Shown: in pieces, positions 42,650 to 48,845 of the stretch
Position numbering within the stretch: the stretch's first letter is position 1
How the letters are laid out: every line of letters begins with the position of its first letter
Assembly: GCA_017528205.1 (NCBI GenBank)
Contig: JAFXPE010000033.1
Coordinates: 1 to 64,000, forward strand
DNA from: Alphaproteobacteria bacterium
GTDB lineage: Bacteria > Pseudomonadota > Alphaproteobacteria > RF32 > CAG-239
Direction of reading: 5' to 3'
Length of the DNA stretch: 64,000 bases
Notes under the pieces: generated by a model
Told to the model about the DNA's origin: nothing
Seen by the model: the letters and a program-made list of their open reading frames with translations, nothing else
The model's database searches: none
Position numbers and translations under genes: made by a program

Positions 42650-42726
42650 GGCGGGGTAGCTCAGTTGGTTAGAGCAGCGGAATCATAATCCGCGTGTCGT
42701 TGGTTCGAATCCGACCCTCGCTACCA
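42650..42726 (+). tRNA. tRNA with CAT anticodon (probably elongator Met)
   Basis: 77 nt ending in encoded CCA. The acceptor GGCGGGG pairs with CCTCGCT (two G-U pairs, including position 1-72). The D arm is GCTC..GAGC; the anticodon stem is GCGGA/TCCGC around loop ATCATAA; the T arm contains GGTTCGAATCC. A CAT anticodon can be Met or lysidine-modified Ile; the stem-loop matches alphaproteobacterial elongator Met as I recall it. The 3' arm differs from the usual form, as expected if an integrating element replaced it. Confidence 0.85.
42710..42726 (+). repeat. Attachment core, left (attL) in the tRNA 3' end
   Basis: The 17-base TCCGACCCTCGCTACCA at the tRNA 3' end is repeated exactly at 45109-45125 and 45282-45298. 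Confidence 0.85.
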
Positions 42727-42731
42727 TTCAT

Positions 42732-42765
42732 ACTCCTAACTTATTGAAGTTAGGAGTTATTTTTT
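42732..42765 (+). terminator. Terminator after tRNA-Met, brought by the element
   Basis: ACTCCTAACTT (42732-42742) and AAGTTAGGAGT (42747-42757) are followed by TATTTTTTTATT. The presumed original tRNA terminator remains beyond the attachment repeats at 45133 and 45305. Confidence 0.85.
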
Positions 42766-42847
42766 TATTCACCCCCTAAAAAATTACCTTGAAAGATGGA
42801 TTTTTGCAGGTGTTACACAACACTGTTACACAAGGCATCAGAAAGCA

Positions 42848-43465
42848 ATGAACGGGCACAACAGATTGGTAAGAAGGAATGCTACATACTACATTAGGGC
42901 ACGAATCCCTGATGAATTAAGGGATTTAGCACATAGAAACGAGTATATTTATTCCCTGAAAACGAATAACTATAACGAAGCACTGGAAAAAGTGAGAAAA
43001 GAGTCTTATAAAGTTGATTGTAGGATTAACTTTTTAAGAGCAATAAAAATGAGAATTGAAAATGGCACTTTAATACTTGATGATGGTGATATTGATAAGT
43101 TGGTAATTCATCATTTGAAGTTGATTGAGAGCACATTTGAAAATAAATATGACGATATTGCTGACGGAAATTTTGATACCGAGAATCTGCTTGTAAATTC
43201 TTCAAGGCATATGGAGCAAGCAAAGCAAGAATGTAAAAATCCTAATGAAACCCCAGAATTGAAATGTGTTGAACTTTACATTAGAAATTATTTTGAGGAG
43301 ATTAAGAATAAACGGGAAACCCATTATAAAACGACTCAACTGATAGGTAGGTTGGATTCTGAGGATATTGCTATCATTAAGGATTATTCTAAACCTGCTG
43401 ATTGGGTTAAAAACACCAGAACTGCTCTAAAAGGGTTGGATAAGTATGTCAAGGATATCCTATAG
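42848..43465 (+). pseudogene. Tyrosine integrase, N-terminal fragment
   Basis: 205 residues. The start LVRRNATYYIRARIPDELRDLA is the DUF6538-type N-terminal segment of tRNA-targeting tyrosine recombinases, which normally have about 400 residues or more. Here the frame stops after KGLDKYVKDIL, before the catalytic domain with its R, HxxR and Y residues. The stop lies at the junction with the ankyrin fragment, so the back half was probably deleted. Confidence 0.78.
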
Positions 43466-43595
43466 TATCAGTGGAGTTTAAATCCAAGTTGTTTTCAAGT
43501 AATTCATTTACAGAATTGTAATCACCAATAGCAATAGCAGTATTCAATTCATCTAGCATAATGGTGTTTTTAGTGGAATTTCTTTTTCTAATCAT
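43449..43595 (-). pseudogene. Ankyrin-repeat protein, N-terminal fragment
   Basis: 48 residues from the ATG at 43595 (AAGGAT upstream). LNTAIAIGDYNSVNELLENNLDLNSTDTIGYP is the first ankyrin unit; the next helix should follow at once, but the frame stops. Its last 17 bp overlap the end of the integrase fragment on the other strand. Ankyrin genes are common cargo of elements in host-associated bacteria. Confidence 0.55.
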
Positions 43596-43690
43596 GTTCT
43601 TATCCTTATAAAATATTATTGTTACAAAAATATTTATCTGGGATTCATTCAAAATGATGATAAATAGTAGTTGGAAGTTCTTATCCTCCC

Positions 43691-43727
43691 CAAAAAAATG
43701 CTACTGATTTTATGTCGGTAGCATTTT
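43691..43727 (-). terminator. Terminator downstream of the HxH-motif gene
   Basis: On the minus strand the stem GTAGC..GCTAC, extended by AAAT/ATTT (43696-43704 with 43718-43726), is followed by ATTTTTTT. It lies about 145 bp past the stop of the minus-strand gene at 43872. Confidence 0.6.
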
Positions 43728-43871
43728 AGTTATCCAGAGGGTAAATTTTATGGTTGATTTTTTCAAAAATTGATGCTCCCGTGAGAATGCAACTATGAAT
43801 CAGTATGAGAAGTAGTCCATCTTATTCGGGCAAGGAAGTGTTACCAGCAGTAATGTTGGTAACATCTCTTT

Positions 43872-44411
43872 TTATTCAGTATAAGTTGCTCCAAATAATT
43901 CACTGGATATATAGAGCGGTGGAGTAATTCTCCTCTTGGATTTATACCTATCCTTTTTAGATGGTGTAATAGAGGTGTATTCATACCATTTTTCTACATC
44001 ATATATTTTCTTCAACTTGTGAGAAGTTTTAGGATATATGGATTTCATCATATCTTTTATGTATGTGGCAAAAATGGATACTTCTACAATATCTGCTTGA
44101 TAAATGGTAATGTGAATATGTGGTATATCGTTAGATTGTGTTTCAATAATACCTTCAAAAAAGTTCTGTATATCAGTTAATTTTCTCCATTTAGTCCCAT
44201 ACTTCCATTGATAATAGTGTGATAAAATGGATTTTAAGGTTCTTTCCAGTTCAACTTCATCAACATATTGGTTCGGGTTTAATGATAAAGCATATAATCC
44301 ATATGGTGTATCTCCAATCATTTCTTTACTCATATCATCTATCCAAAGTGATTTCATCTTCCTTATTTTACTCTCTGTTTCTTGTGTTATTCTATTCTTA
44401 AATATCTTCAT
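43872..44411 (-). CDS. Orphan element protein with an HxH motif
   Basis: 179 residues, start ATG at 44411 with GGAGAG upstream. A central strand reads IPHIHITIYQ, preceded by an acidic residue (FEGIIETQ), and a later segment is VEKWYEYTSITPSKK. The order resembles rolling-circle Rep proteins (ExxxxxPHxH, then W..Y..K), and the size is small but possible. I did not find a convincing first Rep motif, so this is a hypothesis only. Otherwise it is an unknown cargo protein of the element. Confidence 0.45.
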   Translation of the reverse strand: MKIFKNRITQETESKIRKMKSLWIDDMSKEMIGDTPYGLYALSLNPNQYVDEVELERTLKSILSHYYQWKYGTKWRKLTDIQNFFEGIIETQSNDIPHIHITIYQADIVEVSIFATYIKDMMKSIYPKTSHKLKKIYDVEKWYEYTSITPSKKDRYKSKRRITPPLYISSELFGATYTE

Positions 44412-44806
44412 AATTCTCTCCTTTAATGGTTTATTGTGATTATTGATTTTAAATAATGCTAAATCATATGGTTAGTTTTTAACCATTGGAATTAGTGCGT
44501 TAAATTTAATTGTGGGATTAGCAAGGTTGTTATTCAACATTCGGTGCTAACAAAATTCAAAAGCAACAAGAGCGTGGGAATTCCTTAAATATACCGCCCT
44601 TAACATCAAAATTACAGAGGATGTTAATGCTCCATAATTCCATTGTTGCTGGTTCATAATAATATCAAGTGCTAAAATTCAAAAAGTTCAGATAATAAAG
44701 TTTTTATTGTAGGGTTCTAAATCATAGAGTTTTTAATCATAAAGTTTTTTACATAGAGTCTTTTATTATAACTTCTAAAAGTATTTATTAGAATTGGAGC
44801 AAAAAA
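44412..44806. other. AT-rich noncoding DNA of the element
   Basis: No gene is supported on either strand. It contains a hairpin TAACATC/GATGTTA around 44610-44640 and a cluster of four ATA(A/G)AGT-type repeats (44695-44766). Confidence 0.5.
44695..44766. repeat. Four short iterated AT-rich repeats
   Basis: ATAAAGTTTTTAT (44695), ATAGAGTTTTTAAT (44724), ATAAAGTTTTTTAC (44739) and ATAGAGTCTTTTAT (44753) share the consensus ATARAGTTTTTTA, with spacings of 29, 15 and 14 bp. Confidence 0.6.
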
Positions 44807-44923
44807 TTGAATTTTAAAAATCTCATACCAGAAACAATCCAAAAACGGTGGAATTTTTATGTGCTTTACCAACAAAAATCAGCGTTGCGGGCAATCATTA
44901 AAAATATAATGAATAATCAATAA
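44807..44923 (+). CDS. Possible 38-codon gene
   Basis: TTG start seven bases after TTGGAG. The product begins NFKNLIPETIQKRW and is basic and helical. No match is known to me. It may be a fragment or chance; the ribosome site and residue mix are the only support. Confidence 0.22.
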   Translation: MNFKNLIPETIQKRWNFYVLYQQKSALRAIIKNIMNNQ

Positions 44924-45108
44924 GTTATTGTATTATACAAGTGATTGAATTATCAACACATTTTATTGAGCGGTAGAAATTGCTTGACACCATTATTTAT
45001 AAGGATTATAAGCGACTCAACACAGTTACATTAAAAATTCATTTATTGGCAAGTTTTTGAGGTAATAATTTAGTATTTTCAATATGTTAGAGTTTTAGAT
45101 TCGGTGCT

Positions 45109-45125
45109 TCCGACCCTCGCTACCA
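45109..45125 (+). repeat. Attachment core copy 2
   Basis: Exact 17-base copy of the tRNA 3' end; it closes the 2.4-kb element. It is followed by a terminator resembling the one after copy 3. Confidence 0.85.
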
Positions 45126-45132
45126 ATAAACG

Positions 45133-45161
45133 AAAAAGGTACCTGAAAAGGTGCCTTTTTT
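45133..45161 (+). terminator. tRNA-type terminator, copy 1
   Basis: AAAAAGGTACC pairs with GGTGCCTTTTT (one G-U) around TGAAAA, then T residues. Confidence 0.7.
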
Positions 45162-45281
45162 GTTTATATGTGTAGCCGGATACGAACCAACATAAGACGG
45201 CTTTAGCCGGATTTCGGGGGTTTGACGCCAAGCGAAAAAGGCGATAGCCGTTGAGCGCGAAGGAAACGCGAAGCGGAACAA

Positions 45282-45298
45282 TCCGACCCTCGCTACCA
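45282..45298 (+). repeat. Attachment core copy 3 (probable original chromosomal end)
   Basis: Identical 17-base core; here the match to the tRNA extends two bases further left (AATCCGACC). Confidence 0.8.
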
Positions 45299-45304
45299 AT
45301 AAAC

Positions 45305-45335
45305 GAAAAAGGTACCTAAAAAGGTGCTTTTTTTG
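45305..45335 (+). terminator. tRNA-type terminator, copy 2
   Basis: AAAAAGGTACC pairs with GGTGCTTTTTTT around TAAAAA. Probably the original terminator of the tRNA-Met gene. Confidence 0.65.
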
Positions 45336-45443
45336 TTTTTAAATAAATCGGAAATAATAGCAAAAAAATAAGCTTTACAAAATTATACATACCTATAAGT
45401 ATAAAAAAGTTGCAATAAACATACCCAAAAGTACATTTTTTAA

Positions 45444-46892: not shown

Positions 46893-47927
46893 ATGGCTGA
46901 GGTAATTACATTCGGTTGCCGGATTAATGCCTATGAATCCGAGGTAATTAAGGAAAAGCTTAAAGATTACGAGAATTTAATTATCGTAAACACTTGTGCC
47001 GTAACCGGAGAAGCCGAGCGGCAATGTCGTCAGGCCATTCGCAAACTCAAACGCGAACATCCGGAATGCGAGATTATCGTTACCGGATGTTCGGCGCAAA
47101 TCAATGCCGCAAAACTGGCAGATATGCCGGAAGTTACGCTGGTTTTGGGAAATATCGAAAAAAAAGAAATTGAAAAATATGTCGGCGGAATTTTTGCCGA
47201 TAAAAAGCAGGTCAGCGACATTTTTTCCGATACGGTATGTGATGATTATTTGATTACCGGTTTTGAAGGGCGACACAAAGCCTTTGTGCAAATTCAGCAG
47301 GGTTGCAACCACCGTTGCACCTATTGCATTGTGCCTTACGCTCGCGGCAAAAACCGGAGCGTGCCGCAAGAATTAATTATTAGGCAGATAAAAAAACTGT
47401 TGGCCGCCGGCTTTAAGGAAATTTGTTTGACCGGCGTCGATATTTGTTCGTATCAGCCGTCTTTGAGCGCTTTAGTGGCAAATATTTTGGAGCAAATTCC
47501 GGAATTGCCTCTTTTGGCCTTCGGTTCACTCGATCCGGCAGCGATTGATGATAAATTTATAGATTTACTAAATAAATACAATAATATATCCGATTATTTT
47601 CATTTTTCAATTCAATCAGGTGATAACGAGGTGTTGCGTTCTATGGGACGTCGCCACAAACGTGAAGATGTTATAAATTTATGTAATAAAATCAAAAAGA
47701 TAAAGCCACAAGCTAAATTTGGTGCCGACTTTATATGCGGATTTCCGACCGAAACCGAAACCGCGTTTGAAAATACTTGTCTTTTGGTAAAAGAAGCCGG
47801 ATTGAATAAGTTGCACGTCTTTCCGTATTCGGAACGTTCCGGAACTCCGGCGGCCAAAATGAAGCAGTTGCCGATGGCTGAACGCCGCAGAAGAGCCGCA
47901 ATTTTAAGAGAATTAAGTGAGGAATAA
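46893..47927 (+). CDS. mtaB: tRNA t6A37 methylthiotransferase MtaB, short form
   Basis: 344 residues. This radical SAM enzyme adds a methylthio group to t6A at tRNA position 37. The N-terminal domain has Cys in TFGCRIN, NTCAVT and TGCSAQ (auxiliary cluster). The radical SAM domain has GCNHRCTYCIVPYARG (CxxxCxxC). The protein ends at ERRRRAAILRELSEE, where relatives continue with a TRAM RNA-binding domain of about 60 residues, so that domain is missing. The stop is directly followed by the ftsY ATG. Confidence 0.88.
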   Translation: MAEVITFGCRINAYESEVIKEKLKDYENLIIVNTCAVTGEAERQCRQAIRKLKREHPECEIIVTGCSAQINAAKLADMPEVTLVLGNIEKKEIEKYVGGIFADKKQVSDIFSDTVCDDYLITGFEGRHKAFVQIQQGCNHRCTYCIVPYARGKNRSVPQELIIRQIKKLLAAGFKEICLTGVDICSYQPSLSALVANILEQIPELPLLAFGSLDPAAIDDKFIDLLNKYNNISDYFHFSIQSGDNEVLRSMGRRHKREDVINLCNKIKKIKPQAKFGADFICGFPTETETAFENTCLLVKEAGLNKLHVFPYSERSGTPAAKMKQLPMAERRRRAAILRELSEE

Positions 47928-48845
47928 ATGAGTTTTTGGGAAAAACTGGGACTGGGATTAAAGAAAACTTCGGCTAATATAACCGGCGGAATTGCCGATA
48001 TTTTTACCAAAAAGAAGCTGGATGCCGCCACTTTGGAAGAATTGGAAGAACTCTTACTTGAGGCAGATTTTGGCGTGGAAACTGCAATGCGTATAGTTTC
48101 CGAGTTTTCCGCTCAAAAACAAAACAAAGAAATTACCGATGAAGAAATTCGCACTCTGTTGGCGCAGAATATAGAGCAAATACTGCAACCTTGCGAGGGT
48201 AAAACCTTGCTTGATTCCCCTGCTAAACCCTACGTTATTTTAATGGTCGGAGTTAACGGCGCCGGCAAAACCACCACCATAGGCAAAATTGCGGCAAAAT
48301 TGCAGGCTCAGGGCAAAAAGGTTTCGTTTATTGCCGCCGATACATTTCGCGCCGCGGCGGTGGCGCAACTTAAAGTTTGGGCAGAACGCTCGAATATTCG
48401 CCTTTTCAGCGGTCCTGACGGTTGTGATAGCGCCGGTTTGTGTTATGACGGCCTTAATGCGGCCATCAAAAACGGCGACGATGTGGTATTTATTGATACT
48501 GCCGGTCGCTTGCAGAACAAAAGCGGCTTAATGGCTGAGCTGGAAAAAATCGTGCGCGTAATTAAAAAGCTTTTGCCGGAGGCTCCGCATAAAGTTTTGT
48601 TAACGCTTGATGCCACCACCGGTCAAAATGCTGTGGCACAGGTGCAAACTTTTAAGGATATTGTCGGAGTTAACGGCCTGATTGTAACCAAACTCGACGG
48701 TACTGCCAAAGGCGGAATTCTAGTGGCAATTGCCGACAAATATAAACTTCCGATATATTACATCGGTGTTGGCGAACAAATCGATGATTTAGATGAATTT
48801 AAAGCCGCCGACTATGCCCGTCAATTGCTTAACTTGCCGCGATAA
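47928..48845 (+). CDS. ftsY: Signal recognition particle receptor FtsY
   Basis: 305 residues. This GTPase receives SRP-ribosome complexes at the membrane. The N domain (about 1-90) leads to the G domain: GVNGAGKTTTIGKIA (G1), AADTFRAAAVAQL, DTAGRLQ (G3), TKLDGTAKGG (G4) and the closing GVGEQIDDLDEF. The long acidic A domain of E. coli FtsY is absent, which is common. The 3' end overlaps the convergent membrane-protein gene by 17 bp. Confidence 0.95.
   Translation: MSFWEKLGLGLKKTSANITGGIADIFTKKKLDAATLEELEELLLEADFGVETAMRIVSEFSAQKQNKEITDEEIRTLLAQNIEQILQPCEGKTLLDSPAKPYVILMVGVNGAGKTTTIGKIAAKLQAQGKKVSFIAADTFRAAAVAQLKVWAERSNIRLFSGPDGCDSAGLCYDGLNAAIKNGDDVVFIDTAGRLQNKSGLMAELEKIVRVIKKLLPEAPHKVLLTLDATTGQNAVAQVQTFKDIVGVNGLIVTKLDGTAKGGILVAIADKYKLPIYYIGVGEQIDDLDEFKAADYARQLLNLPR

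Follow-up and report, generated by a model that had tools for sequence, protein, structure and literature searches.

Why do the front parts of an integrase gene and an ankyrin-repeat gene, encoded on opposite strands, meet tail to tail beside a tRNA gene? The question is raised by a 1.91-Mb alphaproteobacterial genome in which both genes lie on a 108-kb contig (G000:C8). The part of this contig analyzed here, a stretch of 64,000 nucleotides, is referred to as the window. The initial annotation proposed that one internal deletion had removed both 3' parts and all the DNA between them, and that the element had been immobilised as a result. In this study, we compared the locus with genomes of the same genus and family. 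Our analyses indicate that this is very probably a small integrative element, located at the tRNA-Met 3' end, which lost an internal block and also took part in module exchange.

A tRNA-linked element with two truncated genes

The element occupies a 2.4-kb stretch that starts at the tRNA-Met gene and has 17-bp repeats of the tRNA tail at both limits (Table 1). The tRNA gene is identical at 77 of 77 bases to its copies in genomes G021 and G002. Searches with PADLOC and PHROGs returned matches to ankyrin, integrase and invertase, as expected, together with some weak ones.

Table 1. Features of the element and its borders in the window
Feature	Position	Strand	Remark
tRNA-Met (CAT), intact, integration target	42650..42726	+	last 17 bp (42710-42726) form attL
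Tyrosine integrase gene, 5' fragment, 205 codons	42848..43465	+	DUF6538 kept, PF00589 lost
Join of integrase and ankyrin DNA	43453..43463		integrase-identical to 43457, ankyrin-like from about 43458
Ankyrin-repeat gene (142 aa in relatives), 5' fragment, 48 codons from ATG	43449..43595	-	assigned by homologues
ORF179, intact, 179 aa	43872..44411	-	HxH and invariant Tyr
Element right end, mostly non-coding, about 0.6 kb	44556..45125		99.1% identical to G021
attR, 17 bp	45109-45125		identical to tRNA tail 42710-42726
Further copy of 17-bp tRNA tail	45282..45298	+	173 bp past attR; 172 bp in G021

The integrase fragment contains 203 native residues of about 590, followed by two codons from beyond the join. 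In Pfam searches, its 205 residues matched only the N-terminal DUF6538 (E 1.1e-13), a domain of which our literature search found no mention. The full-length integrase of G021 (590 aa), whose residues 1-203 are identical to those of the window protein, also contains Phage_integrase (PF00589) at residues 377-547; the window copy, cut at residue 203, is therefore missing the catalytic domain. Longer forms are the rule among homologues: in 136 family genomes, at a limit of E <= 1e-60 that favours long matches, 32 of the 33 matches besides the window's own reach at least residue 580, and the remaining one, in G002, stops at a contig end. This G002 contig (C36) has the same left end as the window and stops within the integrase. 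At E <= 0.001, the 205-aa query matched 13 of the 26 genus genomes, several matches being short; none of the short matches inspected (L016, L025, L020, L040 and L018, with one on G001:C15 left out) was a stub ending at residues 203-205.

The ankyrin reading frame (43449-43652, minus strand) encodes 67 aa if translation starts at a TTG codon and 48 aa if it starts at the ATG at 43595, and its stop codon comes from integrase DNA. Pfam gave no ankyrin match for this fragment, and its identity rests on homologues. A search of 152 family genomes yielded 21 matches. Eleven of them in the genus, besides the window's own (E <= 2.4e-9), end at query residue 65 or 66, i.e., at the join, in open frames of 146-182 codons; all six homologues that were aligned are 142 aa long. 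This 142-aa family recurs in the genus beside differing small ORFs (L063:2077-2505, L067, L068, L069, L071 and L072). Both genes are thus truncated, as had been proposed, and the tail-to-tail arrangement with its 17-bp overlap (43449-43465) was confirmed.

At the right border (45109-45341), the tRNA tail with a terminator is present twice, and the two copies are 95% identical across 60 bp. The layout in G021 is alike. Its terminator differs from that of the window and is common to both G021 copies, which suggests that the copies are homogenised within each genome.

An intact relative and the structure of the join

An intact relative, which the initial annotation had advised finding and aligning across the join, was sought in 26 genus genomes with the element stretch as query. 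It was found on contig C25 of G021, another species of the genus, at the same tRNA-Met, with about 6.8 kb between att repeats. A homologous TPR gene adjoins the element at tRNA-Met in both genomes. This contig matches the window in two blocks on one strand, 42727-43457 and 43464-45120, that lie 4,422 bp apart in G021, from integrase codon 203 to ankyrin codon 48. Besides the remaining parts of the integrase and of the 142-aa ankyrin protein, the 4,422-bp block encodes a serine recombinase of 187 aa (PF00239) and three further ORFs, of 160, 159 and 213 aa. The 159- and 213-aa products look membrane-anchored, judging by their N-terminal hydrophobic stretches. The window copy lacks the catalytic domain of the integrase and roughly two thirds of the ankyrin gene; its ORF179 and att repeats are intact.

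The switch in identity is sharp: 42727-43457 corresponds to the G021 integrase gene, and the sequence from 43464 onward to the G021 ankyrin gene. As judged from these alignments, the join is not a chance alignment. Its minus-strand sequence is GGATATCCTTGA. Microhomology at this position, which the initial annotation had suggested looking for, is possible. The motif TATCC (minus strand; GGATA on the plus strand) stands in the integrase and at the aligned place in four of six ankyrin genes (L063, L068, L069 and L071), and the join could include microhomology of up to 5 bp. However, the join is one codon (3 bp) shorter than all six aligned ankyrin genes; since this extra codon is present in each of them and the parental allele was not found, the microhomology is only a suggestion.

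Comparison with G021 also revealed a mosaic. The left end (42727-43457) is identical at 730 of 731 positions (99.9%), and against G002 it has no mismatch and 2 gap columns. The middle (43464-44555) is 83.4% identical (886 matches, 176 mismatches and 60 gap columns), and the right end (44556-45125) is 99.1% identical (564 matches, 5 mismatches and 4 gap columns). This pattern implies that exchange with a divergent element also happened. With a middle at 83% and ends over 99%, a G021-like copy that underwent one clean deletion was ruled out as a full account. Thus, the missing block anticipated by the initial annotation is real with respect to G021, and its origin in a single event is not established. 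By sequence comparison, the ankyrin/ORF179 module appears to have a history distinct from that of the element ends. Two neighbouring core genes (46893-48845) are 79% identical to G021, compared with about 99-100% for the ends, which points to recent spread of the element between species.

Searches of viral contigs, plasmids and the 26 genus genomes revealed no undeleted parent with the ankyrin/ORF179 allele of the window; the search of genome contigs returned one locus, the G021 contig itself. The right flank of the window (MlaA) is unlike that of G021, where MlaA lies on another contig. In G010 (L110), sequence resembling the DNA past attR directly follows tRNA-Met, as expected of an empty site, and L110 is the only such case among the other tRNA-Met loci without the element. 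In that scan of 24 loci, the tRNA-tail pattern gave no tail in more than half, three of which have the tRNA by ARAGORN or BLAST; the pattern was too strict or the tail could not be read on the scanned strand. No clean empty site was detected upstream of MlaA, where the pattern occurred in 0 of 24 loci. Among these MlaA loci, ARAGORN predicted tRNA-Met at one, L084 in G025, and tRNAs of other kinds at two, and gene order differs. The tRNA query matched all 26 genus genomes, many of the matches being other tRNAs.

Probable deletion and module exchange, and alternative explanations

We propose the following course of events. Recombination with a divergent element would have supplied the ankyrin/ORF179 segment, either ahead of the deletion or along with it; the internal block may have been removed by an illegitimate deletion that used a few bases of microhomology; and the element probably passed between species recently.

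A drop in identity from 99.9% to 83.4% at precisely the join, with a return to 99.1% at about 44556, would also be expected if a G021-like element had swapped everything from integrase codon 203 to about 44555, in one event, for a divergent fragment carrying an already truncated ankyrin gene and ORF179. We consider this unlikely: it demands a non-homologous left break plus a second crossover in the same event, and as its right boundary falls within homologous sequence, a history in which an ordinary module swap came first and the deletion later is no more complicated. The coincidence of the divergence switch with the join could likewise reflect tandem accretion at the tRNA gene involving a resident element, a process described for tRNA genes in excerpts of PMC5704250, and the extra tRNA-tail copy downstream of attR fits such a history. 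However, G021 carries the extra copy as well, and the return to 99.1% identity at the right end means that the resident would itself have to be a mosaic, so accretion appears decidedly improbable.

The left end is near-identical to elements of other species and is thus able to confuse assemblers, which raises the question of whether the join exists in any cell. Usual assembly overlaps are far above about 5 bp. The break has only about 5 bp in common with either parent, and the join lies within the 108-kb contig, with no gap letters in the stretch read; an assembly chimera is therefore very improbable. Finally, that these are two natural short proteins, as open frames and a possible ATG start might allow, was rejected with near certainty, since each frame runs to a stop codon at or beyond the join, within DNA of the other gene, and no integrase or ankyrin homologue was seen to end at the join residues, the finding that the initial annotation had named as contrary to its reading.

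Deletion of the internal block together with module exchange, the preferred explanation, bears on whether the element can still move. Self-excision is not expected, because the integrase catalytic domain is lost, and to this extent the initial annotation was correct in calling the element immobilised. The word overstates the case, since attL and attR are both retained (G021 has att repeats at corresponding places) and the element may still be open to rescue, either in trans or through accretion. The same genome encodes two full-length related integrases, on C28 (44%) and C40 (39%), the former adjoining tRNA-Gly. We give little credence to the idea that the deleted form is a moving non-autonomous mini-element, composed of the left end, ORF179 and the right end and excised and integrated by full-length relatives. 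If this were true, the ends would be over 99% identical across species because the deleted form travelled after integrase loss. A deleted form that still moves would represent a natural non-autonomous derivative; otherwise, the locus reflects ordinary genome decay.

The intact ORF179 may provide an additional lead. Six homologues (45-59% identity) occur in other genera of the family, and five of them enter the alignment. Residues H98, H100 and Y145 are invariant in all nine aligned sequences, two of which are distant (23% and 29%); the two His around one residue, with Y145 as putative catalytic Tyr, are what we take to be an HUH endonuclease motif. At L152-L155, the homologues are found near recombinase or integrase-like ORFs, the latter label being our own reading for ORFs that gave no match; at three of these loci (L152, L154 and L155), ORFs that match ankyrin weakly are also close by. 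The family occurs in tRNA-linked elements of several genera. No Pfam family was assigned to ORF179, and neither the window nor the G021 copy gave a Rep or relaxase match. Its structural model is of low confidence (pLDDT 51.8), with strands and helices arranged in a ferredoxin-like order; weak matches included origin-binding domains of AAV Rep and viral Rep proteins, mixed with unrelated ferredoxin-like folds. In VIA-align, parvovirus NS1 nuclease ranked 41st with a Z of 6.8 that unrelated folds shared, so this match proves nothing, and comparison of the ORF179 alignment with sequences of solved structures gave nothing below E 0.13. ORF179 is a candidate small HUH-like nuclease, which this weak evidence offers as a lead only.

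Related remnants and comparison with known elements

Similar integrase stubs elsewhere in the genus argue for ordinary decay of an integrative element. Such stubs are found beside tRNA-Gly (L016), tRNA-Ser (L025) and tRNA-Leu (L020), and also at L040. Like the window, they keep a 5' fragment of the integrase gene and are missing the remainder; unlike it, they end at residues 21 to 70 instead of 203 and have other partners. The integrase match at L018 ends at a contig end. Overall, a tRNA gene adjoins four of these five inspected short matches. A search with integrase residues 204-590 matched 14 of the 26 genus genomes, again with some short frames, e.g., in G008:C3 (147 codons) and G001:C35; decay is therefore not confined to one side. 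At L040:909-1663, a 66-aa integrase stub (minus strand) and a 198-aa serine recombinase ORF (plus strand) overlap tail to tail by 43 bp.

Related tRNA-linked elements at L066, L073 and L074 combine the same integrase type with a serine recombinase of the DNA-invertase family. Long, repetitive ORFs that resemble fibre genes lie close by, and these mobile islands may carry a phase-variable inversion system. Islands that target tRNA genes form a recurrent set in this uncultured proteobacterial genus.

Compared with its G021 relative, the window element occupies the same tRNA-Met, has both ends, and shares the order of the ORF179 and ankyrin genes; it differs by the 4,422 bp that are extra in G021 and by the ankyrin/ORF179 segment being only 83.4% identical. 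Relative to tyrosine integrases that combine PF00589 with DUF6538, the window fragment has no catalytic domain. The locus documents the decay of a tRNA-targeting island whose intact counterpart lies at the same tRNA: the catalytic part of the integrase goes, and the ends stay.

The closest known counterparts are cis-mobilizable elements (CIMEs), which excerpts of PMC5704250 and PMC7563491 describe as common: remnants of decayed ICEs or IMEs in which attL and attR are retained. Among seven ORFs of the G021 relative, no relaxase or conjugation family scored above the Pfam cut-off, although ORF179 might be HUH-like; because the intact relative has no recognised conjugation or relaxase gene, descent from an ICE or IME is only a possibility, and we regard the window element as CIME-like, not a CIME. 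Like the CIMEs in these excerpts, it is a tRNA-linked deletion remnant still flanked by attL and attR, has lost its functional integration gene (cut at residue 203), keeps a cargo ORF and has undergone module exchange.
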